A DNA stretch of 64,000 bases from a virus, in the IMG/VR virus record IMGVR_UViG_3300030107_006644, positions 62,001-126,000 of that record; one strand, 5' to 3'. The notes beneath the pieces are model-generated. The model searched no databases. It was given only the letters and a program-made list of their open reading frames with translations, and was not told the DNA's origin. Below are positions 3,918 through 60,427 of the stretch, in pieces; within the stretch, counting starts at the first letter, position 1, and each line of letters starts with the position of its first letter. A program made the position numbers and the translations under genes.

Positions 3918-4413
3918 AAAAAAGAAAAACCTTAAAGAAGAAGAATATCCGCGCTCAAAACATCAAAAGCAGACGGATCCAACTCAACGGATTATTGATC
4001 AAAACGATACTATGATAGAATATCTGGAAAATATGACGAATTCTTTAAATGCCATGGTTTACTACGCAACTAAAAGTCGTGGTGGCAAGGCAGATATAGA
4101 AAAATCCATCGGTTCTTCGTTCGTTAACGAGGGACAACCAACCAACCCAGTGACATCTTCGGTCGATGCTTCCAAACAAGAGAAAGAAGACACTCAGGCG
4201 CTTTACAACATAGAACAGGGAAAGGTGACTGAGGCAACCATGCAGGCCGGAAAAGAGCAGACCTATCCAAGTGTTGACGCGACTGATCAGCGTACTGATT
4301 TTCCGGGTACAGACGATAGAGTGGCAGACCCCAGAAACGAAAGTAAAGTCTCGATAGAAGAATTGAAAGATTTAATCAGAGAGCAACTATTTATAACAAG
4401 GAAGAACAAATAA
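3910..4413 (+). CDS. hydrophilic protein of unknown function
   Basis: This 167-residue protein overlaps the previous gene by 8 bases. It has a Lys-rich N-terminus (MSKKKKNLKEEE), a short helix at residues ~30-50, a low-complexity Thr/Asp/Gln-rich middle that looks disordered, and a helical C-terminus (SIEELKDLIREQLF). No catalytic motif is seen. A protein with a long disordered linker between two helices could be an adaptor. Function unknown. Confidence 0.55.
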   Translation: MSKKKKNLKEEEYPRSKHQKQTDPTQRIIDQNDTMIEYLENMTNSLNAMVYYATKSRGGKADIEKSIGSSFVNEGQPTNPVTSSVDASKQEKEDTQALYNIEQGKVTEATMQAGKEQTYPSVDATDQRTDFPGTDDRVADPRNESKVSIEELKDLIREQLFITRKNK

Positions 4414-5175: not shown

Positions 5176-6762
5176 ATGTCATATTCCATTTCAAAGCAGC
5201 AAATAATCAAAGAGATAGTTAAGTCAGGTAAAGACCCACAGTACTTTTTGAACAACTATGCCAAGATATCGCACCCTCAAGAGGGTACAATTCCTTTTCG
5301 CACTTACGATTTTCAGTCTGCACTTTTAGATGATTTTAACGATCACCGATTTAATGTTATTCTAAAAGCACGACAGCTTGGAATTTCTACAATTGTTGCT
5401 GGCTACGTGACGTGGCTCATGATGTTCCATCGCGACAAGAACATTCTTGTTGTGGCAACAAAATTTACGACAGCTTCCAACTTGGTAAAAAAGGTTAAAG
5501 CAATTATCAAAAGGCTACCAGAATGGCTACAGATTGCAGATATCACAACAGATAACCGTACTTCTTTTGAGCTATCAAACGGTTCCCAAATTAAAGCTTC
5601 TTCTACGTCCGGGGATGCTGGGCGTTCGGAAGCTCTTTCGCTGTTGGTGGTTGATGAGGCTGCCCACGTTGATGGTTTAGAAGAATTGTGGATGGGTCTT
5701 TATCCCACTCTTTCAACTGGTGGTCGATGCATTGCGCTTTCTACACCAAATGGTGTTGGTAATTGGTTCCACAAGATATTCACAGAGTCGGAGATACAGG
5801 AGAATGATTTTCACCCCACTACGTTAAGATGGGATGTACACCCGGATCGTGACCAAAATTGGTTCGCAAAAGAGACCAAAAATATGTCACGCAGAGAGAT
5901 TGCTCAAGAGCTTGAGTGCAACTTTAACACTTCTGGCGAAACAGTGATCCACCCAGATGACATAGCTTGGATGCAAACTCTAACTAAGGATCCGGAATAC
6001 CGTACAGGGTTTGATAGAAACTTTTGGATTTGGGAAAAACACGATCCGGCATGCTCTTATTTGTTGTCTGCTGATGTTGCTAGGGGCGATGGAGCGGACA
6101 ATTCGTCTTTTCATATAGTCAAGCTGGAAACCATGGAGGTGGTTGCAGAGTACCAAGGGAAGCCAAGTTTGGATATGTATTCCAACATTCTGAATCAAGC
6201 CGGCCGAGAATACGGTAACTGTATGGTCGTTGTTGAAAACGTCGGAGTGGGCATCTCGGTATTGGAAAAATTGATTGATTTGGATTATCCTAATTTATAT
6301 TTCTCCACCAAGGGTGCGCATGAGTTCGTAGAGCAGTATCAAGCCGAATCGATGTCAAACGCAATAGCGGGATTTACGACTTCTTCGAAGACTAGGCCGA
6401 TAATCGTGGCAAAACTAGAGGAATTCATTAGAAATAAACTAATTAAAGTATATTCCCAGAGAGCGATTAAGGAGATTACTACATTTGTTTGGATAAACGG
6501 CAAGCCACAGGCCATGCGAGGATATAACGATGATTTAGTTATGGCTTTAGCAATTGCGTGTTGGGTTAGAGATACTGTTTTACAAACTAGCAAAAGAGAG
6601 GTAGAATATAAAAAAGCGATGCTGAACTCTATGGTGGTGGCTAATACTAAACTTAACACCACTATTAAAGGTATGCATGGCTATCACAAATCGCAAGATT
6701 CGTGGGAAAACAAGGACGAAAGATCCGAAGCACAAGAATTCAAGTGGTTATACAAGGGATAA
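5176..6762 (+). CDS. 17: terminase large subunit (gp17-like packaging ATPase-nuclease)
   Basis: This motor pumps DNA into the prohead and cuts concatemers. The ATPase domain shows a Walker A variant KARQLGIST (residues 64-72), Walker B LLVVDEAAH (156-164) and the coupling motif LSTPNGVGNWF (188-198). The RuvC-like nuclease domain begins at LLSADVARGDGADNSSF (296-312) with carboxylates D300, D305 and D308, and ends with GYNDDLVMALA. At 528 residues it is somewhat shorter than T4 gp17 (610), missing mainly N-terminal material. The portal gene follows after 6 bases. Confidence 0.95.
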   Translation: MSYSISKQQIIKEIVKSGKDPQYFLNNYAKISHPQEGTIPFRTYDFQSALLDDFNDHRFNVILKARQLGISTIVAGYVTWLMMFHRDKNILVVATKFTTASNLVKKVKAIIKRLPEWLQIADITTDNRTSFELSNGSQIKASSTSGDAGRSEALSLLVVDEAAHVDGLEELWMGLYPTLSTGGRCIALSTPNGVGNWFHKIFTESEIQENDFHPTTLRWDVHPDRDQNWFAKETKNMSRREIAQELECNFNTSGETVIHPDDIAWMQTLTKDPEYRTGFDRNFWIWEKHDPACSYLLSADVARGDGADNSSFHIVKLETMEVVAEYQGKPSLDMYSNILNQAGREYGNCMVVVENVGVGISVLEKLIDLDYPNLYFSTKGAHEFVEQYQAESMSNAIAGFTTSSKTRPIIVAKLEEFIRNKLIKVYSQRAIKEITTFVWINGKPQAMRGYNDDLVMALAIACWVRDTVLQTSKREVEYKKAMLNSMVVANTKLNTTIKGMHGYHKSQDSWENKDERSEAQEFKWLYKG

Positions 6763-6768
6763 TAAACA

Positions 6769-8817
6769 ATGGCATCTAGAAATAAGAAGCTAGCACTAAG
6801 AACGCGCCGAAACAACAACCCCAGAAATCAGGAATCTGAACTTTTCAAGAGATTGACTAGATTCTTTTCTGGTCCGGTTGTCAACTACCGCACACAGAAC
6901 ATTCGTCGATATCGTCGTCGCCATCTCGACAAGTTTAATTTTAAGTCAGCCAGCGGCAAACAGTTCAAAAAATCTGATCATAATCCGTTTGCTGCCTTAG
7001 AAGCGGATTTGATGGCGAACCAGAATCGTTCGCAAAGATACACAGACTTTGACCAGATGGAGTATACGCCAGAAATAGCCTCAGCAATGGATATCTATGC
7101 TGATGAGATGACGACATCTAGCGATCTCAAAGCTATGATGGAAATATTGTGCCCAAACGAAGAAATTAAAATTGTCTTACACAATCTTTATTCTAATATT
7201 CTTAACCTAGAGCACAATCTTTTTGGCTGGTGTCGCACAATGTGTAAATATGGCGACTTCTTCTTGTATATTGATATCGATGACGAGGTTGGTGTAAAAG
7301 CGGCAATTGGCTTGCCATCACAAGAGGTTGAGCGCATCGAGGGTGAAGACGAATCTAACCCAAATTACGTACAATTTCAGTGGAACTCGGGTGGAATGAC
7401 TTTCGAGAACTGGCAGGTCGCACATTTTCGTATTTTAGGTAACGATAAGTATTCTCCATACGGCACCTCGATCTTGGAGCCGGCAAGAAGAATCTGGCGA
7501 CAGTTAACAATGCTTGAAGATGCAGTGATGGCATATCGTATTGTTCGCTCCCCAGAACGCCGAGTATTTTACATTGACGTTGGCAATATTCCACCTGAAG
7601 ATGTGGAACAATATATGCAAAAAGTCATGACTCAGATGAAACGCAATCAAGTGATTGACCCTGATACTGGCCGAGTTGATCTGCGGTATAATCCTTTGAG
7701 TATTGAAGAAGATTACTTTATTCCTTTGCGCGGCGGCACCTCTTCTAGGGTGGAAACGCTAGCGGGAGGCACTTATACGGGCGACATTGACGATATTAAA
7801 TACCTAAGAGACAAACTCTTTGCGGCCCTAAAGATTCCGCCCTCTTACTTATCTACAGCAGAAGAGGCAGGAGAGGATAAAACCACCTTAGCGCAGAAAG
7901 ACATCAGATTCGCCAGAACTATTCAGCGACTTCAGAGAGTTGTTGTGTCGGAATTGGAAAAGTTGGGAATTATCCACTTGTATACTTTGGGCTACAGAGG
8001 TGATGATTTAATTTCATTCAGATTGAGGCTGAACAACCCCTCAAAGATTGCAGAACTTCAAGAACTAGAGCACTGGAAGACCAAATTTGATGTGGCTGCT
8101 TCGGCTACTGAAGGCTTCTTTAGTCGTCGCTGGATTGCCGAACACGTATTTAGTATTTCCGATGAAGAGTTCGTCAGAAATCAGAGAGAGATGTTTTACG
8201 ATAAGAAATTCGAAGCAATGCTTGAGGTCGAGGCTGAAGCAATCGTGCAAGCTGGCTCCGTTGAAGCCGAAGCCGGCGCAATGGACATCGCAGAGGAAGA
8301 GGGTCTCATGGGAGGCCCCGGAGGCCCCGAGGAAGGAATGCCGCCCGAGGAGGGAATGCCACCCGAGGAGGGAATGCCCCCAGAAGGCGGACCTGAAGGC
8401 GCCCCACCAGAGGAAGACGGAATGCTTCTCGCCGAACCATCAGCTAAGAGAGAGGATGGTTCTATGTGGCTTAGAGTTGGCAAAGATCCATATGCTCCTC
8501 ACGCAGCAGAAGATCAGGAGGGTGGCCGACGCTATCGAGGACCGCACGGATGGAGCAGCAGATATACTCCCGTTGATGTGGACAATCGCCAACGCGGGGC
8601 CCGCAGGAGATCCTTGGATTCACAAATCAATCCTTTAGGGCGAGCAGATCAAGCTTTTCCCGGATTTCGCGGCCCTCACAGCCTAAGTACAATATCTAGT
8701 GGTATTTATGAGAAGAAGGAAACTATTTATAATGCCGAAGAGCGCCAGTTGTTTGAGGTTAACCAAGAGATTAAGCAACTAATACAAGAATTGGAGACCA
8801 AAGTAGATGAAACTTAA
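6769..8817 (+). CDS. 20: portal vertex protein (gp20-like)
   Basis: The portal forms the dodecameric ring at the packaging vertex and joins terminase, head and neck. The 682-residue protein has the T4-type portal core: a YRTQNIRRYRRR N-terminal segment, YTPEIASAMDIYADEM, and SPERRVFYIDVGNIPP at about residues 263-278, with the DKLFAALKIPPSYLS helix following. After residue ~510 it carries a Gly/Pro/Glu/Met-rich tail with PPEEGM repeats, absent from T4 gp20 (524 aa), then a second conserved-looking C-terminal segment. Codon use is uniform, so this looks like an extension and not a fusion artefact. Confidence 0.93.
   Translation: MASRNKKLALRTRRNNNPRNQESELFKRLTRFFSGPVVNYRTQNIRRYRRRHLDKFNFKSASGKQFKKSDHNPFAALEADLMANQNRSQRYTDFDQMEYTPEIASAMDIYADEMTTSSDLKAMMEILCPNEEIKIVLHNLYSNILNLEHNLFGWCRTMCKYGDFFLYIDIDDEVGVKAAIGLPSQEVERIEGEDESNPNYVQFQWNSGGMTFENWQVAHFRILGNDKYSPYGTSILEPARRIWRQLTMLEDAVMAYRIVRSPERRVFYIDVGNIPPEDVEQYMQKVMTQMKRNQVIDPDTGRVDLRYNPLSIEEDYFIPLRGGTSSRVETLAGGTYTGDIDDIKYLRDKLFAALKIPPSYLSTAEEAGEDKTTLAQKDIRFARTIQRLQRVVVSELEKLGIIHLYTLGYRGDDLISFRLRLNNPSKIAELQELEHWKTKFDVAASATEGFFSRRWIAEHVFSISDEEFVRNQREMFYDKKFEAMLEVEAEAIVQAGSVEAEAGAMDIAEEEGLMGGPGGPEEGMPPEEGMPPEEGMPPEGGPEGAPPEEDGMLLAEPSAKREDGSMWLRVGKDPYAPHAAEDQEGGRRYRGPHGWSSRYTPVDVDNRQRGARRRSLDSQINPLGRADQAFPGFRGPHSLSTISSGIYEKKETIYNAEERQLFEVNQEIKQLIQELETKVDET
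8333..8392 (+). repeat. 18-base tandem repeat in the portal tail
   Basis: Three near-identical copies of a unit like GGAATGCCACCCGAGGAG lie in the portal gene and encode EGMPPE repeats in a likely disordered tail. Copies differ at synonymous sites, so the repeat is not very recent. Confidence 0.8.
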
Positions 8818-10219: not shown

Positions 10220-10540
10220 GTGATAGATTTGCTCTATTTTATTCTTACGGCTTATGGCCTAACTCAAATTTTAGTATACGGCAGCATATTCGACAAAGTA
10301 AGGCCGTCAGAAGGCTTGTTCGGAGAGTTGTTCCGATGCCCCATGTGTTTGGGCTTCTGGGTTGGTGCATTTTTGTTTGGAATAAACGGTTTCACAGAAC
10401 TATTTACATTTGAGTATACAATAGCAAATTTCTTTATTTTGGGTTGGTTATCGTCTGCTACTTCATATGTCTTGAATATGATTATTGGCGATTGTGGGCT
10501 AAAAATTGAAACAATTAGGAGTAAAAACAATGAGCACTAA
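10220..10540 (+). CDS. DUF1360-like membrane protein
   Basis: This 106-residue protein starts with GTG 2 bases after the previous stop. It has about three transmembrane segments and the motif FRCPMCLGFWVGA (residues 38-50), a CxxCxGFWxG signature known from the DUF1360 family of small membrane proteins in bacteria and many phages. The biochemical function is unknown. Its place within head genes is curious for a membrane protein; it may simply be co-transcribed. Confidence 0.75.
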   Translation: MIDLLYFILTAYGLTQILVYGSIFDKVRPSEGLFGELFRCPMCLGFWVGAFLFGINGFTELFTFEYTIANFFILGWLSSATSYVLNMIIGDCGLKIETIRSKNNEH

Positions 10541-10633
10541 CATTTGGACATCGAAGTGGATGCTGCAGCCTGTTAGACATTGCTGCAAAGGCTCTTAGAT
10601 CACGCGGGTAGCGCCCGCACTTATGGAGTTATT
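10541..10633 (+). other. short intergenic leader before the protease gene
   Basis: This 93-base gap holds a small GC-rich inverted repeat (GCGGG tagcg CCCGC, about 10604-10618) shortly before the ribosome site. No clear promoter is seen. The hairpin is too short to call a terminator. Confidence 0.35.
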
Positions 10634-11254
10634 ATGAGTAAGAAACTATTAAGAGAATATTATGAGTTGTGCGATGGAGGATCCTGCCCAGACTTGCTTA
10701 CAGAGTCTGAAAAGGAGTTTGTTGCTAAAGGTGGCATAATTTTGTCTGGAAAGCTTCAAGAGGCAGAGGCCAGAAATGGCAATGGGCGAGTTTATCCCAA
10801 GAAAATCTTAGAAAGAGAGATGAAGAATTATCAAAAGCTTGTGAAAGAGCGACGAGCTTTGGGAGAATTAGATCATCCTGATGAATCGGTGATCAATTTG
10901 CGCAACTGTTCTCATGTGGTTACAGAAGTCTGGTGGGATAGCGATAATCCAAACGCAGTAATGGGAAAAATAGAATGTCTCAACACACCATCAGGCAAAA
11001 TACTGCAAGAGCTAGCCAGAGCGGGAGTTAAATTGGGAATCTCCTCTAGAGGTCTGGGATCTGTCAAAGAGGACAAAGGAGACACCATAGTGGAAGACGA
11101 CTTTCAACTAATTTGCTTCGACATGGTATCAGAGCCGTCTACCAATGACGCCTTTATGATGACCGAGGCCAAAGATTACAAAAAGTCTAACATTTTTACC
11201 AAGGCTGATCGAATTAATCGAGCCTTAAACAACGTATTGAGAGATGAGGAATGA
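10634..11254 (+). CDS. 21: prohead core protease (gp21-like)
   Basis: This serine protease matures the prohead: in T4 it cuts capsid and core proteins after [I/L]-x-E. The 206-residue protein shows a RNGNGRVYPKKI segment, catalytic His81 in GELDHPDES and Ser137/138 in LGISSRGLG, the pattern of the herpesvirus-like prohead protease fold. ATG 10634 follows TATGGAGTT; an earlier in-frame ATG at 10580 would add 18 residues with no homology and is not used. Its presence gives the window a protease that could process the N-terminal peptides of the 53-61 kb cassette. Confidence 0.93.
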   Translation: MSKKLLREYYELCDGGSCPDLLTESEKEFVAKGGIILSGKLQEAEARNGNGRVYPKKILEREMKNYQKLVKERRALGELDHPDESVINLRNCSHVVTEVWWDSDNPNAVMGKIECLNTPSGKILQELARAGVKLGISSRGLGSVKEDKGDTIVEDDFQLICFDMVSEPSTNDAFMMTEAKDYKKSNIFTKADRINRALNNVLRDEE

Positions 11255-11703
11255 AAAAGCAAGATTTAAGAGAGACGCTTAAGCCACTAATTCGCGAAGC
11301 TGTTCGCGAAATTGTCTTTGAAGAGGGTCTTTTGGCAGGAATAGTAGCAGAGGTGATCACTGGAGTTAATGCGGTCAGCACGCCAACGCCTCAACCTCGC
11401 CACGCCCCGCGAACCGACGCGCCACCTGTGGTGAACGAGATGCAAAGTCGCCAACGACAACAGGCTGCAGCCGCTCGTTCGGCTCGAATGGAACAACAGA
11501 AGCAACAAGTACTTGAGTCAATCAACAGGGATTCTTATAATGGAGTTGACTTGTTTGAGGGAACTACTCCGATTGGCCGAGCGGGCGTCCCGGGCCAAGC
11601 CAGCGCCCAATCGGGCCCACTATCAGGTCAGGCCTCAAACGACCCCGGTGTTGATATATCGGCTTTCTTCGGCACTTCACAAAATTGGAGCAAGTTGGTG
11701 TAA
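11251..11703 (+). CDS. head-region protein with amphipathic N-terminal helix
   Basis: This 150-residue protein overlaps the protease gene by 4 bases (ATGA). Residues 1-40 form a strongly amphipathic helix (LRETLKPLIREAVREIVFEE). The middle is Pro/Gln/Ala-rich and likely disordered, and the C-terminal end (DPGVDISAFFGTSQNWSKLV) looks like a short binding peptide. Helix-linker-peptide plans suit scaffold or core proteins, in keeping with the location, but I know no specific homologue. Confidence 0.55.
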   Translation: MKKQDLRETLKPLIREAVREIVFEEGLLAGIVAEVITGVNAVSTPTPQPRHAPRTDAPPVVNEMQSRQRQQAAAARSARMEQQKQQVLESINRDSYNGVDLFEGTTPIGRAGVPGQASAQSGPLSGQASNDPGVDISAFFGTSQNWSKLV

Positions 11704-11704
11704 T

Positions 11705-11959
11705 ATGGCAAACAAAGGTATAAATGCGGCAATCTATCCTCGACGTAATGACACGCCAGAAAGGATGATTCGTCGCTTCACCAAAAAGGTTAAAAAATTG
11801 GGCATTATTGACGAGATTAAAAAGAGAAGATATTACGAAAAGCCGTCAATAGCAAAACGTCGAAAAGCAGCCGAGAGAAAAAGAATGCTGGAAAGGTTAG
11901 AGAAAAAAGCAAAAGCGAGAAAGAAGACTAATTATAGAAAGAGGCGTAGGCAATCATGA
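11705..11959 (+). CDS. rpsU: ribosomal protein bS21, phage-encoded
   Basis: The ATG at 11705 overlaps the previous gene's stop region and gives 84 residues. The block ERMIRRFTKKVKKLG (residues ~19-33) followed by a KRRYYEKPS motif and a Lys/Arg-rich helical tail is the bS21 signature: in bacterial bS21 the same places hold ALRRFKR...KAG...RREFYEKP. bS21 sits on the small subunit platform near the anti-Shine-Dalgarno end of 16S rRNA and affects initiation. Phage copies are known and are thought to replace or compete with the host protein. Confidence in the family is high; the effect is inference. Confidence 0.88.
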   Translation: MANKGINAAIYPRRNDTPERMIRRFTKKVKKLGIIDEIKKRRYYEKPSIAKRRKAAERKRMLERLEKKAKARKKTNYRKRRRQS

Positions 11960-11977: not shown

Positions 11978-12391
11978 ATGGCAGAGTATAATAAATTTAG
12001 TACCCCACCCGGGCTTAATCACGTAGGATCTTATCAGGTTTCAGGTATACCGTATTTGACCGGTTCAGCTAGTTTGGCAGCCAACCTTGAAGACCAGATT
12101 AAATTTCCGATGGTTACTAACAATTTTACTGTTATTAATACTGGCGATACGGCGTTAAGGGTTACGTTTGCATCTGTTGCCAACGCCGCCGTCGAGCTTA
12201 AAATGCACTATATTGAGCTTTCCGATAAAAAGGATTCTGTCACATTCAATGTTAAATGCAAGGAAGTATATGTATCTAATGTTGACGGCTCCTCCGCCGG
12301 CTCATACAGCCTGATGGCCGAGTTGACGCAGATTCCAACAGCTAGAATGTATGCTCTGAGCGGCTCTGGCATTAACGAGAATTCGGCATAA
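11978..12391 (+). CDS. small beta-rich probable virion protein
   Basis: The 137-residue protein follows a weak ribosome site (TATGGAGAACAAC). It is rich in beta-branched and small residues, with GSYQVSGIPYLTGS near the N-terminus and a regular alternation of hydrophobic residues that suggests a beta sandwich. No transmembrane helix or catalytic motif is seen. Lying just before the fibre-like genes, it may be a decoration or fibre-attachment protein. The specific role is unknown. Confidence 0.6.
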   Translation: MAEYNKFSTPPGLNHVGSYQVSGIPYLTGSASLAANLEDQIKFPMVTNNFTVINTGDTALRVTFASVANAAVELKMHYIELSDKKDSVTFNVKCKEVYVSNVDGSSAGSYSLMAELTQIPTARMYALSGSGINENSA

Positions 12392-25605: not shown

Positions 25606-27516
25606 ATGTCTGTATTACAAAAACTAACCGAGGGGATTGTTGACAGAGATCTTGGAAAGGAAGGCGCCGCCCTGCTTAGTAAGTGGGAACGTACCGGTCT
25701 TTTAGAGGGTCTTAACAATGATCATACTCGTTCTAGCATGGCTAGACTGCTTGAAAATCAAGCAAAGGAGCTTCTCCGAGAGGCTTCTACTATGGCCGGC
25801 GGTGACGTTGAAGGCTTCGCATCTGTTGCGTTCCCGATTGTCCGTCGTGTCTTTGGAGGCCTTATCGCCAACGATCTGGTTTCCGTGCAGCCTATGAGCT
25901 TGCCTTCTGGTCTGATCTTCTTCTTAGACTTTCAGGTCACACCCGGTACCGCTCCTAGACTTGGCGCCAGCGATGACGATTCGTTATTCGGCGGTGGCCG
26001 CGTCGGTTCTGCAATCACTGGCGGTGTCAGTCTCGTCGACAATGACATTGAGAAGGGTTTCTACAACCTTAATCAAGGTTATTCGTCTCCGACTGGATCG
26101 CTTCAGCTTACGCTGGTTCCGATTGCTTCCGGTACTGTTGGTAGTGGTATCCTTGATGATGCCGTAGGGGCAGTGTCCCACTCTAGCTGGAAGAACAGCA
26201 AGGCAACCTCGCTTAGCGAGCTTTGCCAGTACGATCCCGATCTTTCTGGATCTTGCGTTGTTGTTGCAACCGCTGCGGGTAATGCCCTTCTGGGCGCAGC
26301 CGGCACTGGTAGTTTGAATCGTGATAACTTAGTTGCGATGATGATTTCATACAATGCATCGGATACCGCCTCCGCAGATGGTCTCTATACGGGTGTCGGA
26401 GGTGCTGCTCGCATGCATCGTCGTCTTACTCGCTTAGTCGGCAGATCTGCAACCACTGCTGAGTACAGCAACCAAGCTTTGGATCCGGGTGATAGCACCA
26501 ACACATCTCTTTTGTTCGTGTTTGAGTCTACGGGTTCGGCAGCCGGCGCAGGAGCTACTGCGGTCAGTCATGAGACAGGCCTCAAGAACCTCTTGACTCG
26601 GGTTGGTTCTGGTGCAAGTGCTACGGTTAGAGCCAAGGCTTTCGACTATCCAATTAGAGATAATCTCAACAATGTTGGAGAAAGAGCACTTGGATCGCTC
26701 GTCGGTGCTGACCAGTGGGGACTGGAAGCCAATGAGGAAATCCCTGAGATCGACATCAAGGTCGATTCCGTGGCGATTACCGCTGTAACCAAGAAGCTCA
26801 AGGCCAAGTGGACGCCTGAGTTGGGACAGGATCTTAATGCCTATCACAACTTGGACGCCGAGGTTGAGTTAACCGGTATTCTTTCCGAGCAGATTGCGCT
26901 GGAGATTGATCGCGAAATCGTGAACGATCTTGTTGTCAACGCATCGGCTGGAACGTACTACTGGTCTCGTTCGCCCGGTATGTTCCTTCGCAGGGACACT
27001 GGTGCTGAGATTGGAGCTAGCTCTGCTGCTCCGGACTTCACCGGTACCGTTAGCGAGTGGTATGAGACTCTTGTCGAAACCATCAACGATGTGTCTGCAC
27101 AGATTCACCGTAAAACTCTCCGTGGTGGAGCAAACTTTATCGTCTGCGGACCTGAAGTTGCTAACATCCTTGAGTTCACCAGTGGATTCCGTGCCAACAT
27201 CACTCATGATGATGACAAGGGAACTGTCGGCGCTGTGAACGCTGGCTCTATCTCGAAGAAGTGGGATGTCTGGGTTGACCCATACTTCCCCCGCAACGTG
27301 ATCCTTGTGGGTCGCCGTGGTAACAGCTTCCTTGAGAGCGGCTATGTTTACGCTCCGTATGTACCACTGCAGACTACCCCCACAATCTTCGGAACGGAAG
27401 ACTTCGTGCCACGTAAGGGTGTTATGACCCGCTACGGCAAGAAGATGGTCCGTCCTGATATGTATGGGCTAGTTATTGTTCGCGGTCTACTTGGTGAGGC
27501 TGGCGCTACAAGCTAA
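25606..27516 (+). CDS. 23: major capsid protein (gp23-like)
   Basis: This builds the hexamers of the head. At 636 residues it is longer than T4 gp23 (521). It keeps LLSKWERTGLLEG at residues 23-35, FPIVRRVFGGLIANDLVSVQPM at ~76-97, KLKAKWTPELGQDLNAYHNLD and SGYVYAPYVPL near the end. The propeptide is probably removed after Glu59 in ELLREAST, a [I/L]-x-E site as used by gp21; T4 gp23 is cut at a similar place (residue 65). Strong codon bias and a good ribosome site (AAAAGGAG) fit very high expression. A terminator follows. Confidence 0.96.
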   Translation: MSVLQKLTEGIVDRDLGKEGAALLSKWERTGLLEGLNNDHTRSSMARLLENQAKELLREASTMAGGDVEGFASVAFPIVRRVFGGLIANDLVSVQPMSLPSGLIFFLDFQVTPGTAPRLGASDDDSLFGGGRVGSAITGGVSLVDNDIEKGFYNLNQGYSSPTGSLQLTLVPIASGTVGSGILDDAVGAVSHSSWKNSKATSLSELCQYDPDLSGSCVVVATAAGNALLGAAGTGSLNRDNLVAMMISYNASDTASADGLYTGVGGAARMHRRLTRLVGRSATTAEYSNQALDPGDSTNTSLLFVFESTGSAAGAGATAVSHETGLKNLLTRVGSGASATVRAKAFDYPIRDNLNNVGERALGSLVGADQWGLEANEEIPEIDIKVDSVAITAVTKKLKAKWTPELGQDLNAYHNLDAEVELTGILSEQIALEIDREIVNDLVVNASAGTYYWSRSPGMFLRRDTGAEIGASSAAPDFTGTVSEWYETLVETINDVSAQIHRKTLRGGANFIVCGPEVANILEFTSGFRANITHDDDKGTVGAVNAGSISKKWDVWVDPYFPRNVILVGRRGNSFLESGYVYAPYVPLQTTPTIFGTEDFVPRKGVMTRYGKKMVRPDMYGLVIVRGLLGEAGATS

Positions 27517-28354: not shown

Positions 28355-28365
28355 CTTTTTGGCAA

Positions 28366-31526: not shown

Positions 31527-34500
31527 ATGTCAAACACACTTTCAGAATTAAGAGGCCGGTTTAACTTCGTATCTCCGGGTATTTACGTTAACGAGGTCGA
31601 CCAGTCCCAGCCATCGGTTGAGCGGTTGGCCCAAGGCCCGGTTATTATTGGCCGATTCCCCAAGGGCCCCATGATGCGCCCCGTGGTTGTTAAATCCAAA
31701 GCACAATTTATGAGCCTTTTTGGCGCTCCACACCCCGGCGGAGCCGGCGGCGATCCGTGGAGAGGCGATGCTCATGGCGGCCCAACGTATGCCGCATATG
31801 CTGCTGAGGCGCATTTACATTCTGCTGGCGGTACTGCTCCTGCTACAATTTTTAGACTTGCAGGCGAGAAGGCTTCTGGAGCAACTGGCAACTATTCCGC
31901 TGCCGGCTGGACAACCCGAGCTAGTTCTGGTGCCCAAGTTAATCCGAATGCTGCTGTCGCTAGCAACGGTGGGGCTTACGGACTGTTCGTCATGGGTCCC
32001 CCAATGGCCGGCCTAGGCAGCGACTCGCTTAACTTCGGAAGCCTTGGGTGGCAAGGCAGCCACGCCGTCACCGGCACGCTAGCCGCTGTCTTTTATCTTA
32101 CCGAGGGCTCGATTCAGCTTGTTGGTAACGGATATAGTCCCGATGGCACCGTGGGGGATCAGACAGCCAGTCTTGGCTCTCTCATTAGGTCTCACTCGCA
32201 TGTTGGCGGCACCTATTATGATGGTGTCGGTGCGGATGCAGCCCCGTGCACATTTAAATTTAGGGTTTTAAACTCTGCGGGAACTGAAGTTTCGAATCAT
32301 ATTGCATCCTTCATCCCAAGTGCCGATCTGGACTCCTACTCCGGCATAGCCGGCGCACGCGATTCGTTCAACTGCGATCCAACCAAGACCAACGCCAGCA
32401 TCAATACTTCGGCGAACACCAAGACTTACTGGCTTGGCGAGACGTATCAGCAAAGTGTCAAGGACATGGTTTCGCTGACCGGATCCAACGCTGCGGATGC
32501 GGGCCAGCAATGGGGAGTGCTTGTAGCACTACACGACGGTGCCAATAACTTTGCAGATCATCGCGAAGATTGGCAAAACCCTTCAACAGGCTGGTTCTTT
32601 TCGCAGGACCAAGGTGCGTATGCAAGCTATCATGTAAATAACATGGAGAAATTGTTTAAGTTTCACGCGCTTGATCACGGCGAATGGGCCCAAAATAACT
32701 TGCGCATTACGATTAGCAACATTGAGCAATATACCAGCAGCAAGTATAAATATGGAAGTTTCGATGTATCAGTTGAGTCGCTTTTCGGAAGAGAGAGTAG
32801 CGTATCGGTTATCGAAACCTTTTCAAATTGTAACTTAGATAGAAATTCGCCCAACTACATTTGTAAGAAGATTGGTGATAGATACTTAGAGTGGAATTCG
32901 GATGCCAATACCGGCGGGCAACATATTGACAAGGGTAGCGAACAAAACAAATCTAGCTACATTCGTGTAGAAGTTTCGGATCTAGTGAAGTACGGCGATC
33001 CCTCGACACTCCTGCCTTGGGGTGTTTATGGGCCCTCGCGCCTTCGTTCTTGGCATGCCAACTCTGGCTCGTCTGGATTCTTTTCTAGCTCTGCCGGCGT
33101 ATTCAACCCGAGTGAGGTGTCGTGTGAAGGTGTCGCTGGATTCTATGCCACGGGAGATGCTTCGGGAATGCCCGCAACGCACCCCGTTGACTCTACCGTT
33201 TCTGGTGTCGCTGCAACCGCAACAATTACTTTTACTGGCAGTCAAACTGTCAACAGGCTTATAACCATTACATCAGCGGACGGTACCGCGAGAACCTATA
33301 CAGGTAAAACTACAGGAACTCCGGGCTCCAACACCTTTGATTGTAACAATGGTGCCGCAGTTTGCGCGACATCGTTAATGGCTGCGATAAACAACGCCGC
33401 CGGCCATTCGGGCAAAATAACTGCTACGAACCCATCATCGGGCGTCGTACTGTTAACACAAGATGTGGTCGGAATAGCCGGAAACACGACTATAACTAAC
33501 GATTTCGACGCCGCAACTGTGCCGGCAGGATTCTCCGGCGGCTCTGCAGGTGAAATCTGGTTCGGTGCCAGTGGAGCTTCACAGATGAACGGCGCCAACT
33601 TTAAGATTGAATACCCCAGTGTTCGCTTGGTAGCTACAGCCTCTATTGGCGGATCCGGCGATAGATATCACAATAGATTTGGTATCGACTGGTCAGACTA
33701 TACTTTATCAGGCGGAAACCACAAGATGACAAGCACCAATGGTGAAGCAGAACTCAGTGTTGTTGATGCGTTACGCCGACTTCCTAAAGCGGTCGCTGGT
33801 AATAGCCCAGATGATTCTGGCAATGTTGAATACTCTTGGGTGTTCACTCTGGATGACATCGTTTGTAGTAACTCTACCGATACCTCTCCAATTGGCACCT
33901 ATACTTCCGGCTCTCGCGCCGGAGGTACAAGCTATACGGCAGCTAGCGGATCGTCTGCTCTTCTTGATATCGGAGATGGCAAGGGATTCCACCAGTTCAG
34001 CACATGTCTAGCTGGCGGACACGATGGTCTCGATATCTGCGAGAGAGAGCCTTTCAGAAACACGCTTTTGGATGACGCTAGCGGAGACAAAACCGTTATT
34101 GCCATGTATAATACGATGGTCCGTGCGCTAGATACCGTTAAGGATCCGGAGTATGTTGAGTGTAATATTATAACTGCCCCCGGTCTTACGGAAAACAACC
34201 TTACCGACATGTTGATTTCGCATTGCGAAAGTCGCGGTGACGCGTTGGGTATCATTGATGTTGACGGCGGATATATTCCGGGCGGTACTGAGCAGGCCAC
34301 AATCTCGCGAGGCTCCGTAAAGGCTGTCTGGCAGAATATGCGAGACCGCACACTGGACTCAAGCTATGGCTGCGCCTACTATCCGTGGGTTCAAGTTAGA
34401 AGTTCTCAAAACAAGGATAGCGTTTGGGTTCCACCCTCTGTCGTAGCCTTGGGAACAATGGCGTCCTCAACAAAGGCTTCGAAAGTCTGGTTTGCTCCCG

Positions 34501-35021
34501 CAGGGTTTACTCGCGGCGGATTGGATTCTGTCGGAACGCGCGCAGGCTCAGCAGGCCTTAAGGTAATGGATGTTAGAGATCGCCTTACTTCCACACAGAG
34601 AGATAGAATGTACGAGAATCGGATTAATCCAATTGCCAAGTTCCCAGCAGAAGGAATCGTGGTGTTCGGACAAAAGACTTTACAAGTTCCGGCCTCCGCC
34701 TTGGACCGGATCAACGTTCGCAGACTTCTGCTGCACGTCAAGAAGCAGACCTCTATCATTGCTGCTACAACCATGTTTAGCCCGAACGATGCAACTACTT
34801 GGGCCGCTTTCAAGGGGTCGATGGATTCGTTCTTAGACGACATTAAGAGCGAGTACGGCCTTCAAGATTACAAGGTTGTGTTAGATGAGACTACCACGAC
34901 GGACGACTTGATCGATGCCAACGTTCTATACGCTCAAGTATACCTGAAGCCGACCAAGGCAATCGAATTTATCCTTGTCGACTTTATCGTTACAAGCCAA
35001 GGAGCATCTTTCGACGATTAA
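31527..35021 (+). CDS. 18: tail sheath protein (gp18-like), enlarged
   Basis: The sheath contracts to drive the tube through the envelope. Residues 10-60 (FNFVSPGIYVNEVDQSQPSV, then PVIIGRFPKGPMMRPVVV) and the C-terminus (NVLYAQVYLKPTKAIEFILV) are typical sheath ends. At 1164 residues it is far longer than T4 gp18 (659). The extra length lies in the middle and includes a beta module at nt ~33190-33545 (TFTGSQTVNRLITITSADGT...) that recurs in many marine phage structural proteins and probably decorates the outside of the tail. Confidence 0.92.
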   Translation: MSNTLSELRGRFNFVSPGIYVNEVDQSQPSVERLAQGPVIIGRFPKGPMMRPVVVKSKAQFMSLFGAPHPGGAGGDPWRGDAHGGPTYAAYAAEAHLHSAGGTAPATIFRLAGEKASGATGNYSAAGWTTRASSGAQVNPNAAVASNGGAYGLFVMGPPMAGLGSDSLNFGSLGWQGSHAVTGTLAAVFYLTEGSIQLVGNGYSPDGTVGDQTASLGSLIRSHSHVGGTYYDGVGADAAPCTFKFRVLNSAGTEVSNHIASFIPSADLDSYSGIAGARDSFNCDPTKTNASINTSANTKTYWLGETYQQSVKDMVSLTGSNAADAGQQWGVLVALHDGANNFADHREDWQNPSTGWFFSQDQGAYASYHVNNMEKLFKFHALDHGEWAQNNLRITISNIEQYTSSKYKYGSFDVSVESLFGRESSVSVIETFSNCNLDRNSPNYICKKIGDRYLEWNSDANTGGQHIDKGSEQNKSSYIRVEVSDLVKYGDPSTLLPWGVYGPSRLRSWHANSGSSGFFSSSAGVFNPSEVSCEGVAGFYATGDASGMPATHPVDSTVSGVAATATITFTGSQTVNRLITITSADGTARTYTGKTTGTPGSNTFDCNNGAAVCATSLMAAINNAAGHSGKITATNPSSGVVLLTQDVVGIAGNTTITNDFDAATVPAGFSGGSAGEIWFGASGASQMNGANFKIEYPSVRLVATASIGGSGDRYHNRFGIDWSDYTLSGGNHKMTSTNGEAELSVVDALRRLPKAVAGNSPDDSGNVEYSWVFTLDDIVCSNSTDTSPIGTYTSGSRAGGTSYTAASGSSALLDIGDGKGFHQFSTCLAGGHDGLDICEREPFRNTLLDDASGDKTVIAMYNTMVRALDTVKDPEYVECNIITAPGLTENNLTDMLISHCESRGDALGIIDVDGGYIPGGTEQATISRGSVKAVWQNMRDRTLDSSYGCAYYPWVQVRSSQNKDSVWVPPSVVALGTMASSTKASKVWFAPAGFTRGGLDSVGTRAGSAGLKVMDVRDRLTSTQRDRMYENRINPIAKFPAEGIVVFGQKTLQVPASALDRINVRRLLLHVKKQTSIIAATTMFSPNDATTWAAFKGSMDSFLDDIKSEYGLQDYKVVLDETTTTDDLIDANVLYAQVYLKPTKAIEFILVDFIVTSQGASFDD

Positions 35022-39721: not shown

Positions 39722-39729
39722 CTATTTAT
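39722..39729 (+). promoter_or_regulatory. CTATTTAT motif directly before a gene without ribosome site
   Basis: Only 7 bases separate the motif from ATG 39737, and no Shine-Dalgarno sequence is present. If the motif is a -10 element, the message starts at or next to the ATG, i.e. it is leaderless. Confidence 0.5.
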
Positions 39730-39736
39730 AGTTATA

Positions 39737-40519
39737 ATGGCTTTACTTGTACCAAAATTAATAACGCTGAAGTGCAACTTGGAAGTTGTCCACCCGGCAC
39801 CGTTCGGATGGGATAGTACAACCAGAACCATAGCGAAAACTCACGGCACAAGCGAGGCTTTTAAAAGGTTTCCTTATGGTCTAGACTATTCCGACGAGGA
39901 TACATATGGCGAAACAACTCACTCAAAAACTTTAGAAAAAATGAGCCAAGGCGCCGAGCAAGACAACTCAGAAGAACCTATTGGCACAAATGTAACTGAC
40001 GAACTCAAAGTGACTTATGAAGCTGGTACTTTTGGCAACGGCGACCCGCACCAATCGACTTACGCAAATACCACAGGCCTGCACCTTTCTTTCAAACATA
40101 TCTCCTCTGGACTGACTGTGTTCTTTAAAGCTTTTCTAACTGATATGAGCGATAACTATTCTATTACGTGGAGTGAAGACGCCGCTATAGGCAGAATGGA
40201 TCCCCTTGTATCTTATCAGGGGATCAGAAGAACGGTTTCTATAACATGGGACCTGCCATCGTGGGATGTCAACGAGGGGGTGGAGAATTTACAGAAGTGC
40301 ACTAACTTGTTTAAAATGTTGTACCCCATGTATCAGGAGCACGGCCACTCTTTGTCGATGTTTTCTCCGCCCATGTTGGGAATTAAGATGTCTAATTTGG
40401 TGGCCTTTCATGACAGTCCTTTTGGCGGTTCCGGAGGATATCTCACAGGTACAGTTCAGGGGTTTGACTTTTCTCCCAACTTAGATGTTGGGTTTTGGGA
40501 TCCGAATGTAGATGAGTAG
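39737..40519 (+). CDS. baseplate tail-tube cap/initiator protein, 260 aa
   Basis: The C-terminal half has LSFKHISSGLTVFFKAFLTD, SDNYSITWSEDAAIGRMDP, IRRTVSITWDLPSW and NLQKCTNLFKMLYPMY. This FKAFL...W...GR.DP...Y...R.. pattern marks the family of T4 gp48/gp54-type proteins that start the tube on the baseplate. The next gene encodes a paralogue, as in T4 where gp48 and gp54 are related in role. Which of the two this is cannot be told by eye. The start has no ribosome site. Confidence 0.65.
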   Translation: MALLVPKLITLKCNLEVVHPAPFGWDSTTRTIAKTHGTSEAFKRFPYGLDYSDEDTYGETTHSKTLEKMSQGAEQDNSEEPIGTNVTDELKVTYEAGTFGNGDPHQSTYANTTGLHLSFKHISSGLTVFFKAFLTDMSDNYSITWSEDAAIGRMDPLVSYQGIRRTVSITWDLPSWDVNEGVENLQKCTNLFKMLYPMYQEHGHSLSMFSPPMLGIKMSNLVAFHDSPFGGSGGYLTGTVQGFDFSPNLDVGFWDPNVDE

Positions 40520-52988: not shown

Positions 52989-52994
52989 AAATAA

Positions 52995-53002
52995 CTATTT
53001 AT
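52995..53002 (+). promoter_or_regulatory. CTATTTAT motif opening the 53-61 kb cassette
   Basis: The motif lies 6 bases before ATG 53009, which has no ribosome site. It matches the motif before head and tail genes, so the cassette is likely expressed late, with a leaderless or near-leaderless message. Confidence 0.55.
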
Positions 53003-53008
53003 TATGCT

Positions 53009-55645
53009 ATGCCGATTTATCATGATAAGTGGCGCCAATTTCTGAAAGAAGAGGAAGAGTTTCAGAAGAACGTAGTGCGCCCCCGACTTAAACGAAACCG
53101 CTCTGCCCTCATAGACTCTGGACCCCATAATCACAATGGAGGTGGCGAATCCGGCGCCAAACCTAAGCCTCGCGGAGACTTGCCGCACGATGCTGGTCCA
53201 CTAAAAGAAGGGTTACAGCCTCAGCCTCGTTTGTTGCGCGAGATATCCGAAGACGAGGTGGAGCATATCCGCACAGCCATTGATGAAATGGGTCCAGAAG
53301 AACTCGCCTTCAATGATGCATTCGAAGGTAAGACGCGCAAGGTTATTGATTTTGCAGCCATTGACGTGGACTCTGAGCTTGGAAAGTTCATGGAGTTCTT
53401 TAGAAAGCAGGAGTACGAAGTAGATTGGAAGCGCGGGCTCGTCACAGCACTGCGAGATGTAACAACTTCGGAAGACTTAATAGATCAGCTTTTCGGACCC
53501 GGCCAGCCACCCAAAAAGAAGTACAAGAAAATTCAGATGAAGATCGGCAAGCTGTTTCCGAAGATAGCAGAAGTAGGAAAGAATCAGGCCGTACTCTTTA
53601 AGAAGGTCGTGGAACATGCCAAAATCCATCACGCGAATCGCATACCAAACCATCCGGGTAATGTCAGCGACCACCAATTGAAACAAGCACTGCCAGACGA
53701 AGAAGAATACAAGAGATACCAACAATTGTATCAACAAATGAGATTGTATGTGCCGAACTCCGGCTATTTTCAGCCGTCATGGTGGGAGGTTCCAGATTGG
53801 GCAACTAAGATGTCTAAGTATTGGCAAGAGAATGCAGCATACATTAAAGATGAGATCGATGAACTAAAAGGAGACCAGTACTCCATTATCCTCACGCGAG
53901 ATCCGATTGACATCCTTCGCATGAGCGATTTTAATAACATCACCTCCTGCCACACTCCGCCATCCAGAGGCGGGGGCGACACCTACTATAAGTGCGCAGT
54001 TGCTGAAGCTCACGGCCACGGAGCTATTGCATATGTTGTTGAAACACAAGAGCTATTAGAGGCTACTGAGACCGACACAATTGAGGCTGCTGAAGCTGTC
54101 ATCGAGCAGCTTGGAGGAGAGATCTTTCCAGACGATGTTAGGGGAAGCCATGTCGGACTCAGCACGGAGTTGAATCCAGTCTCTAGGCTACGTCTCAGAA
54201 AGTTTGTGTATGACACTCCAGATCCAGAGGGTGGTTACGATATCGGCACACAGCTAGCGGTACCGGAGAAGCGTGTGTACGGAAAGAAGATTCCCGGCTT
54301 CGTTGAGCGTGTAGTTCAGTGGGCGAGAGATAATCAGGAAGAGGCTCTTCAGAACATGCCAGTGGATGCATACGGTGATGGCATCGATTTAGGCAAGTTT
54401 AATATTGTGGGTGCTTCCTATGAAGATACTCAAGGCTATTCCGGCCGCCGGGCTCTTATGGTGCAACTAACTGGCCGGCCAAACGAAGACTTTGATGGCC
54501 AGATCGAGCAAGATGCAAGCGCGGAACATGACTTAGACACCTCTATGTTTACCGCTGGCCAAATTGAAGATGCCCAACTCCGCGCCGATGAGATAGCTGA
54601 AGACTGGAACCGTCGCTACCAAGCTGCGGAAATTCAGGCAACTGCTGAAGACGACGATGGCCAAGTCATCATCATGCTCAGAGCATATATGAAGGTTGAC
54701 TGGGGCGAAGAAGAGTGGAACAAGCTTCCGCTTCCAAGCACTGCGCGCTGGGCAGTCTCGGAGCTTAACGACTTGGGTTGGTCTTGGGCCGATGAAGGCA
54801 CGGCTTGGCTTAGGCGGGACACGCACAGACAAACAATATCTTTGGGCTTCCGTATCAACCCCGAGCATATACCAGAGTGGACCGGCATGCCGTTCACTGC
54901 AGACCCAGAAGAGATCGAAGACTTTGGCGTAGCCGTCAACGCTATTGATGACATGTACGACGGAATTAAACATTACCTCACCAGACACTACAAACTCCAA
55001 GGCATTATGGCCGGCGGTGCATTTTTAAACATGGCCATGGAGATCTCAAACAATGATATTGATCCATATGAGTGGACGCTTGAACTTGATGACCGGTGGG
55101 ATCCGGAGGAAGCTAACATTGCAATAGGTCAAGTAGAGTTCTTCTTTGATGCCGAGGAGCTTCAGTGGAACCCACAAGTTCTACAGCAGGTGCTAGACTC
55201 CCACGATTTTAGAACTGCGATTCGGAACAAAATGTTGGCAGATGCCAAAGAAGAGGTCGGAACACAGTACAACGTAGACATTTGGACGCAGGGGACGGGG
55301 GCTTTGATAGTTGATAATGGCGTAAACTACGAATTTGCACTTGTTGTTAGCAATGAGGATCCGGATGAAGTGATCGAATTGTTTCAGACAGCAGTCTGGC
55401 AACCCGGTACTGTCGATGACGAAGATAAGCTTCGCGAAATCTTTTTGGGAACACTGGAAACGATGCAGAGAGCGCGGATGCCATCTGGTATGAGAGATCC
55501 AGAGCCTATCGAACAATCTGGTCCCGACCAGCCAGATCCGCCGCCGGCCCAAAATTCTGAAGATGAGAATCTACCAAGCAGTAGATTAGATGAGAGTAGA
55601 AATATGCATAGGATGTACAAGAAATGGAGAAGCTTTATAAAATGA
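53009..55645 (+). CDS. large protein of unknown function with putative capsid-targeting peptide, 878 aa
   Basis: The N-terminus MPIYHDKWRQFLKEEEEF matches the cassette peptide (KWR then F-L-K-E, a possible gp21 site after Glu14). The C-terminus repeats a like peptide (MHRMYKKWRSFIK). Residues ~285-340 contain ILTRDPIDILRMSDF then NITSCHTPPSRGGGDTYYKC and AVAEAHGHGAIAYVVE, with conserved-looking Cys, His and Gly that suggest an enzyme or metal site, but I cannot name the family. The rest is acidic alpha/beta. If packed in the head, it would be a large injected protein, similar in size to T4 Alt. Confidence 0.65.
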   Translation: MPIYHDKWRQFLKEEEEFQKNVVRPRLKRNRSALIDSGPHNHNGGGESGAKPKPRGDLPHDAGPLKEGLQPQPRLLREISEDEVEHIRTAIDEMGPEELAFNDAFEGKTRKVIDFAAIDVDSELGKFMEFFRKQEYEVDWKRGLVTALRDVTTSEDLIDQLFGPGQPPKKKYKKIQMKIGKLFPKIAEVGKNQAVLFKKVVEHAKIHHANRIPNHPGNVSDHQLKQALPDEEEYKRYQQLYQQMRLYVPNSGYFQPSWWEVPDWATKMSKYWQENAAYIKDEIDELKGDQYSIILTRDPIDILRMSDFNNITSCHTPPSRGGGDTYYKCAVAEAHGHGAIAYVVETQELLEATETDTIEAAEAVIEQLGGEIFPDDVRGSHVGLSTELNPVSRLRLRKFVYDTPDPEGGYDIGTQLAVPEKRVYGKKIPGFVERVVQWARDNQEEALQNMPVDAYGDGIDLGKFNIVGASYEDTQGYSGRRALMVQLTGRPNEDFDGQIEQDASAEHDLDTSMFTAGQIEDAQLRADEIAEDWNRRYQAAEIQATAEDDDGQVIIMLRAYMKVDWGEEEWNKLPLPSTARWAVSELNDLGWSWADEGTAWLRRDTHRQTISLGFRINPEHIPEWTGMPFTADPEEIEDFGVAVNAIDDMYDGIKHYLTRHYKLQGIMAGGAFLNMAMEISNNDIDPYEWTLELDDRWDPEEANIAIGQVEFFFDAEELQWNPQVLQQVLDSHDFRTAIRNKMLADAKEEVGTQYNVDIWTQGTGALIVDNGVNYEFALVVSNEDPDEVIELFQTAVWQPGTVDDEDKLREIFLGTLETMQRARMPSGMRDPEPIEQSGPDQPDPPPAQNSEDENLPSSRLDESRNMHRMYKKWRSFIK

Positions 55646-58998: not shown

Positions 58999-59456
58999 AG
59001 CTCCTACTTGAAAATTGGCGGAAGTATTTGAAAGAGGTTTCTATGGGCCGCGATATGACAAGCTCTATAGAATACACAGCCTTAGTGCTCGACAACGATT
59101 CGCATGAGAGGCTAGCCGTATACGCTCCAGAAGGGTGGAAAGTTATTGCCCACCATATGACAATCATCAGGCCTCACGAAATGAAAAGTGGTCGGCTACC
59201 AAGCCAATGGCTGGACTTTGAGGGATGCTTTGAAGTAACGCATATCGCTCAAAATGAGCAAGTCATGACTGCTCTGGTTGATCTTGGAGATACACCAATA
59301 CCGATGAAAGGGCCAGTCATGCCGCATGTCACTATTGCCACCAACCCGGAAACAGGTGGGAAGGCGTACATGTCCAACGATATTCCAATTACAAGCTTTG
59401 AAGAATTGTCGGAACCAATCAGCATATGCGGCGCCGTCGAGGAGGTGTTTAGATGA
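58995..59456 (+). CDS. 2H phosphoesterase with putative capsid-targeting peptide
   Basis: Two H-x-T motifs, AHHMTIIRP (H54-x-T56) and MPHVTIATN (H111-x-T113), at the usual spacing mark the 2H phosphoesterase fold, which cleaves cyclic phosphodiesters. The T4 anti-CBASS protein Acb1 belongs to this superfamily; others act on RNA ends. The first 14 residues MKLLLENWRKYLKE match the cassette peptide with L-K-E|V as a possible gp21 site. GTG start overlapping the previous stop; the next gene overlaps its stop (ATGA). The substrate is not known. Confidence 0.78.
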   Translation: MKLLLENWRKYLKEVSMGRDMTSSIEYTALVLDNDSHERLAVYAPEGWKVIAHHMTIIRPHEMKSGRLPSQWLDFEGCFEVTHIAQNEQVMTALVDLGDTPIPMKGPVMPHVTIATNPETGGKAYMSNDIPITSFEELSEPISICGAVEEVFR

Positions 59457-60427
59457 AGCTCCTATTTGAAAATTGGCGAAGGTTTATAACTGAAGAAACA
59501 GATGCAACAGGCGCTATGCCTGCACATCTTGACACAAAGAAGATCGAGGCTGCGAACCAAGAGCTTTTAGGCCAACAGGGTTATACTATCTTGCGTGAGC
59601 TTGGTAGAGGACACTACGGGGTTGTGTACGAGGTTCAGAATGAACAGAGCGGTGAGCGACTCGCAGCGAAAGTTGTCAGAAAGAGTGATAGAGAAACAGA
59701 GAATTACGAATTTGCGATGAAAAACAAGGGCTCAATGCCTCCTGAATATGCAAAATACTTGCCAGAGGTTAAAGAAATTATACCCGGAGCCTCAGACCGC
59801 AACATCATATTCATGGAGCTACTTAAACCTTTGCCAGACAGAGTGGCGCAGGAACTGTTTGCAATGGAAGATAAACCCGATGCATCGCAAAAAACAGAAA
59901 AGATCTTAAAAAGCCCCGAAGCGGTGGCTGAGTTAGTTCAAAGAATTGTCAACAATAATAGAATTTTAAACCAAATGCGCGACTTCTTAGTTAATCGGAA
60001 AGAGGTTACAAAAGCTGCCGTTAACGCAGCGACTAAATCTTCGCACTCGGATCCTGAAGGCCTCCTGAAGGCTGTGTATGGTGCCGTAGTCCGAGAACTT
60101 GAATTTCAAAGTGTTGGAGTTTACAAGTCTTTCGAGTCTGCTTTGAAGAATGATCTGCTGTTTTACTTAGATAAACAGGTTGTACCTGTTCACCAGCCAG
60201 AGCCAGACGATCCAGATGCGGATGATTTGTGGACAGGCCCGGCCATGGCAAAGACACAAGAGTTGTTCCCCGAGGCCGAGAACCTAATTAATGCTATGAG
60301 GTATTTTATGCAAGACCAGCAGTGGCGGCCTAAAGATGTGCACATAAAGAACGTTATGATGAGGCCATCGACTAATGATTTTGTAATTGTAGATCTGGGC
60401 TTGTTCCAGAGAGGGATATTTGAATGA
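59453..60427 (+). CDS. protein kinase-like protein with putative capsid-targeting peptide
   Basis: The kinase motifs are in order: glycine loop ELGRGHYGVVYEV (residues 49-61), LAAKVV (Lys73), hinge-like IIFMELLKPL, catalytic loop PKDVHIKNVMM (D295, N300) and IVDLGLF (D314, in the place of DFG). The chain ends ~10 residues later, so the usual large C-lobe is mostly missing after the metal-binding Asp, and the insert before the catalytic loop is long and helical. The peptide MKLLFENWRRFITEE at the start has I-T-E|E. Phosphorylation of host proteins early in infection is possible. Confidence 0.72.
   Translation: MKLLFENWRRFITEETDATGAMPAHLDTKKIEAANQELLGQQGYTILRELGRGHYGVVYEVQNEQSGERLAAKVVRKSDRETENYEFAMKNKGSMPPEYAKYLPEVKEIIPGASDRNIIFMELLKPLPDRVAQELFAMEDKPDASQKTEKILKSPEAVAELVQRIVNNNRILNQMRDFLVNRKEVTKAAVNAATKSSHSDPEGLLKAVYGAVVRELEFQSVGVYKSFESALKNDLLFYLDKQVVPVHQPEPDDPDADDLWTGPAMAKTQELFPEAENLINAMRYFMQDQQWRPKDVHIKNVMMRPSTNDFVIVDLGLFQRGIFE

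Follow-up and report, generated by a model that had tools for sequence, protein, structure and literature searches.

A bS21 homologue beside the prohead protease looks like a core gene in a lineage of large T4-like phages

The stretch of DNA analysed here (the window, 64,000 nucleotides) belongs to a 205.5-kb IMG/VR record of a large tailed T4-like myovirus. Its genes run in the order terminase, portal, three small genes, prohead protease, g150, bS21, g137, long virion-type open reading frames (ORFs), major head protein and tail sheath. The features that matter below are these (window coordinates, strand, description, with E-values for PHROG matches):

5176..6762, +, terminase large subunit (PHROG 2, 7.4e-52)
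6769..8817, +, portal protein (PHROG 213, 2.6e-74)
10399..10406, +, ACTATTTA motif in the 3' part of a DUF1360-like gene, putative late promoter for protease, g150 and bS21
10580..11254, +, prohead (head maturation) protease (PHROG 207, 5.1e-51)
11251..11703, +, g150, a 150-aa protein, function unassigned (no PHROG or Pfam match)
11705..11959, +, bS21 homologue (rpsU-like), 84 aa (PF01165, PHROG 21469, phmmer against the PDB, AlphaFold2, Foldseek)
11978..12391, +, g137, a conserved 137-aa protein after bS21 (GGAG Shine-Dalgarno; no Pfam match)
25606..27516, +, major head protein (PHROG 138, 3.5e-70)
31527..35021, +, tail sheath (PHROG 23, 2e-68)

The original prediction placed a phage-encoded bS21 between the prohead protease and virion genes, and this is indeed its context, with protease, terminase, portal, major head protein and tail sheath confirmed by PHROG matches. 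The position is operon-like: g150 overlaps the protease gene by 4 nt and its stop codon lies 1 nt from the ATG of bS21, and we therefore read protease, g150 and bS21 as one cassette. The protease itself is likelier to start at ATG 10634, which is preceded by GGAG, than at 10580. A homologue of g137 comes next after bS21 in many related loci. The record has five tRNA matches, all outside the window.

The bS21 ORF, which opens with ATG and closes with TGA, holds both motifs from which the protein had been recognised (RRFTKKVKKLG and RRYYEKPS). It is matched by Pfam PF01165 (50.8 bits, E = 1.4e-13, cut-off 27) and by PHROG 21469, 'ribosomal protein S21' (E = 1.4e-9), and the 38 distinct PDB sequences found with phmmer all carry the name of ribosomal protein S21, of bS21 or of a mitochondrial or plastid form. 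These lines of evidence all agree, and the identification stands. PF01165 also matched all 37 lineage members scanned (E <= 0.001). An AlphaFold2 model (mean pLDDT 85.5) has helices at residues 18-32, 34-42 and 47-83, and the best 11 of its 14 Foldseek matches come from ribosome structures, in most cases a mitochondrial small subunit, at E-values that are all weak (0.03-0.9), as expected for a small helical protein. The window protein is predicted to adopt the helical bS21 fold, its model matching bS21 and bS21m chains. No second bS21 was found when the whole 205,517-base record was searched. The protein is very basic (34 Lys or Arg and 8 Asp or Glu among 84 residues, counted by eye). It holds, by eye, a single match to I-x-E, the T4-type prohead-protease cleavage motif; the match is uninformative on cleavage because the same position is also Glu in bacteria.

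We compared 31 Pseudomonadota sequences with 110 from phages, of which a few lie outside the lineage. Bacterial bS21 residues are kept in the phages at F25 (109/110), K46 (110/110), P47 (98/110) and R23 (98/110). The N-terminal helix, on the other hand, carries basic or bulky substitutions across the lineage: position 20 is Arg or Lys in phages and mostly Val in bacteria, position 21 is Met or Leu against Ala in 31/31 bacteria, position 28 is Lys in 107/110 phages against Ser in 24/31 bacteria, and position 30 is Lys in 102/110 phages against Glu in 29/31 bacteria. These positions are a lead, rather than proof, for altered mRNA handling, and divergence of the N-terminal helix in phage bS21 is likewise described by Chen et al. 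2022 (PMC9723584). A Bacteroidetes-type, ASD-sequestering bS21 would have an aromatic residue at Tyr54 (F. johnsoniae numbering); the alignment with 7jil ended at its residue 50, and the extrapolated window position, 60, is Arg.

The lineage was sampled in three ways, anchored on bS21, on the protease and on a more distant protease. The bS21-anchored sample comprises 77 viral loci, with g150 seen in 67 and absent from the sequence seen in ten. The second sample, the best 80 of 551 relatives of the protease, does not presuppose bS21, which is nevertheless present in 61 of the 80 loci and in all 61 that are assessable (those with g150 and 300 nt or more of downstream sequence); the remaining 19 are cut off too soon or stop short of g150. 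The third sample drew 80 of at least 593 relatives, 79 of which were examined (L144 was already in the second set), and bS21 is found in 66 of these 79 and in 65/65 assessable loci, a count that is not independent of the 61/61 because at least 12 contigs, by eye, are common to both protease sets. Among the loci with bS21 (77, 61 and 66 in the three samples, and nine of the Mel-JY01 type), none has the gene opposite to the locus orientation. Within the lineage as sampled, bS21 thus looks like a core gene and not an occasional extra. Around the protease of Microcystis phage Mel-JY01, 9 of 12 loci have bS21, and one (L284) of the seven with at least 2000 nt downstream is without it; no recognisable g150 was found in the 12. 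The gene is nearly constant in this more distant Mel-JY01-type lineage as sampled.

Where both genes are seen, g150 and bS21 are adjacent in 63 of 67 bS21-anchored loci and 58 of 61 protease-anchored loci. Some loci have other sequence between the protease and g150, yet g150 and bS21 mostly remain together. About 500-5300 nt of other sequence separates the two genes in L014-L016, L071, L154, L156 and L162. Homologues of g150 share a conserved N-terminal helix and a C-terminal GVDIS-type motif; the structure prediction is poor (pLDDT 68, pTM 0.28), and a PHROG scan of 39 members hit two families, each by one member only and at E above 0.002. As the constant neighbour of bS21, g150 deserves a study of its own.

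Across 45 pairs of 10 distinct sequences from one sub-clade, leaving out the first 30 nt, which overlap g150, the pN/pS of bS21 is ~0.08 (mean pN 0.048, pS 0.60), indicating strong purifying selection. Over the 77 loci, bS21 distances correlate with those of the protease (r = 0.63) and of g150 (r = 0.70), neither value being reached in any of 1000 permutations, a pattern that fits vertical descent. With a mean distance of 0.56 vs 0.32, divergence is faster in bS21 than in the protease. It had been proposed that a phylogeny with host bS21 would reveal the likely host, but it yielded no assignment: a FastTree split (support 0.904) sets the phage lineage apart from the 31 sampled Pseudomonadota bS21, and HTVC008M, Mel-JY01 and eight loci in which g150 is not in view fall on the bacterial side. 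These 31 sequences, the host copy of G001 and the 30 best-scoring loci, are not a random draw and represent Pseudomonadota alone from a pool of 192 genomes with a match among 200 searched. A scan of genome contigs found a single relative, L018 (NZMJ01000169.1), a 4-kb phage contig in a Maricaulis MAG. The MAG's own bS21 (L083) is clearly different; the placement of the contig is probably a binning error, and otherwise a weak host lead. The PDB scores of the window protein are higher against sequences of S. aureus or gammaproteobacterial type (37.6 bits) than against F. johnsoniae (20.6 bits), which is weak evidence, and these organism labels are the ones we presume from the entry codes.

The + strand of the window holds 11 copies of the ACTATTTA motif (at 4386, 8722, 10399, 16400, 24254, 28365, 28662, 31444, 36980, 52994 and 56916) and the - strand holds none; not one of 100 shuffles reaches 11. 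The bias extends to the whole record (24 + vs 3 -) and to 93 unique loci, window included (880,812 bases; 198 + vs 3 -). Of 80 unique loci, 62 have the motif no more than 450 nt upstream of the protease ORF, usually at 160-260 nt, and in many it is found some 220-250 nt past the start of bS21. In the window, a copy sits 235 nt upstream of the protease ATG. To judge from position and strand bias, ACTATTTA looks like a candidate lineage-wide late promoter. Its placement is like that of a late promoter, but its sequence is not the TATAAATA/NATAAATA of T4 and cyanophages (PMC2984593), and we found no published report of it as a phage late promoter among the titles and abstract openings listed. The suggestion that bS21 is made late is plausible in so far as co-expression with the protease is concerned, given the 1-nt gap to g150 and this upstream element. 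Around bS21, scans for sigma-70-like elements (20 vs 16.2 in shuffles) and terminator-like elements (7 vs 9.0) gave no clear excess, and a sigma-region-2 search of the record gave no match; a search for a T4-type clamp had no match in its controls and is uninformative. The copies of ACTATTTA at 28365 and 36980 directly follow terminator-like hairpins, seen by eye.

For 10 of the 11 window copies, ACTATTTA lies 7 to 77 nt from the ATG, and some leaders driven by it would be short, most of the short ones still holding a Shine-Dalgarno core. The copy at 52994 ends 7 nt before ATG 53009 of an 878-aa ORF without such a core, and positions 52994-53011 are a possible candidate for a nearly leaderless late message, the sole such start after ACTATTTA in the window. 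Among the 198 sites, three have an ATG opening an ORF of at least 50 codons within 12 nt, two of them possibly by chance. A CTATTTA at 39722 lies 8 nt before an ATG at 39737.

Shine-Dalgarno cores (GGAG, GAGG or AGGA, 4-18 nt upstream) precede 31 of 54 first-ATG starts and 127 of 1160 internal ATGs in the window, the 54 genes having been chosen greedily by ORF length and including a few doubtful ORFs; bS21 falls outside this set because its long TTG-started frame overlaps g150. This difference would speak against a Bacteroidetes host that ignores Shine-Dalgarno sites. Such cores precede g137, the long virion ORFs and the genes for major head protein and sheath, and the idea that bS21 serves leader-poor virion messages finds no support here, since capsid, sheath and other virion genes carry good ones. 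The window bS21 start itself has a distant GGAG alone (14 nt spacing). Across the lineage the core is found at 56/114 bS21 starts, after 23 of 137 bS21 loci without a core-motif match were dropped, and at 64/133 g150 starts.

Earlier work (Chen et al. 2022; Mizuno et al. 2019) has already described phages with bS21, the location of the gene next to the prohead protease and its expression late in infection. Among 900 published bS21 phages, Global Ocean Virome genomes included, 310 have a prohead protease within ten genes of bS21 according to Chen et al. 2022 (PMC9723584), so that the setting is a common one and the claim that few sites are as telling does not hold. The same source reports that lake-phage bS21 is transcribed late, with structural genes. 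Like these freshwater phages, ours is a large myovirus with bS21 a few genes from the prohead protease (here two genes after it), portal, terminase and major capsid protein, and with a putative late role. However, lake-phage bS21 lies opposite to its neighbours' strand in five clades, whereas the window gene is on the protease strand, and the lake phages have Bacteroidetes hosts, whereas the window phage uses Shine-Dalgarno sites. Mizuno et al. 2019 (PMC6375957) describe bS21 in cultivated and uncultivated, mostly aquatic phages, among them the marine, T4-like Pelagibacter phage HTVC008M; its bS21 shares 42% identity with ours over 56% of the query and lies near replication genes, whereas the window bS21 lies near head genes. 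Mel-JY01 (PP395634.1, complete genome) has the same order of prohead protease, a hypothetical gene, RpsU and, further on, capsid protein, but the intervening gene is not recognisably g150 (hhalign probability 2%) and its bS21 is more divergent, across the tree split from the window lineage. Flavobacterium phage immuto 13-6C (MW353177.1), whose terminase is the nearest annotated one (45% identity) and whose head genes are similarly ordered, has no annotated bS21 in the slot and none by blastp in a 19-kb stretch. What is added here is that bS21 has core status, with g150 as its fixed partner, in a phage that uses Shine-Dalgarno sites, together with the ACTATTTA element.

We think it fairly probable that the phage bS21, made late with the head proteins, enters the host 30S subunit and aids initiation on late messages. 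Its place there would most likely be the usual bS21 position close to the 3' end of the 16S rRNA, where it would displace or supplement the host protein, and late-made or remodelled 30S would be likely to initiate better on the abundant Shine-Dalgarno-led late phage messages. We favour this explanation because of the PF01165 match, the predicted fold, the low pN/pS, the core status, the cassette layout, ACTATTTA, the kept residues and the published precedents. Against it, bS21's own start has no better site than its distant GGAG, the record gave no sigma-region-2 match, and the pelagiphage bS21 assayed by Mizuno et al. (PMC6375957) entered E. coli 70S ribosomes and impaired translation rather than improving it, GFP synthesis falling to ~5% of control, albeit in a non-native host. 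The latter result would suit a host shut-off, in which phage bS21 lowers translation of host messages, a reading we hold to be very improbable since the assay used a different bS21 in that non-native host and to stop translation while virions are being made would be costly to the phage unless the effect were selective.

It is unlikely, though worth weighing, that the gene simply maintains dosage, the phage protein being equal to host bS21 and keeping 30S complete after host synthesis stops, with no preference among messages. The core residues are kept and Shine-Dalgarno use is ordinary, so that special selectivity is not needed, but the lineage-wide substitutions in the N-terminal helix, judged against 31 Pseudomonadota sequences only, would be unexpected of a plain replacement. 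A role outside the ribosome, with this very basic protein packaged or binding nucleic acid in the prohead, would agree with its constant linkage to protease and g150, and Chen et al. 2022 (PMC9723584) raise encapsidation as a possibility; it seems to us improbable, as it is the positions of ribosomal bS21 that are conserved and ribosome chains that match the fold.

A bolder form of the 30S-entry explanation, which we regard as doubtful, is that an obligate bS21, co-evolving with g150 in the head module, gives the phage a 30S of its own, the remodelled, basic N-terminal helix altering engagement of short-leader late messages with strong Shine-Dalgarno sites driven by ACTATTTA. If this were true, ribosome re-tooling and capsid production would form one heritable cassette. 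Genes for ribosomal proteins in phages tend to be regarded as optional, auxiliary ones; here, the presence of bS21 in every assessable locus of the lineage, its tie to one partner gene and its strong constraint argue for a needed function. With this defined cassette, specialised ribosomes could be studied during infection by phages that use Shine-Dalgarno sites, rather than by those of Bacteroidetes.

Elsewhere in the window, the ORF at 59453-60427 weakly matches a protein-kinase domain (PF00069, 1.8e-6), its 28.0 bits falling short of the 31.7 cut-off. The palindrome CGGCGCCG has 16 sites in the window, from 13248 to 59429, where dinucleotide composition predicts ~0.6, and CGGTACCG occurs 7 times against 0.3 expected.
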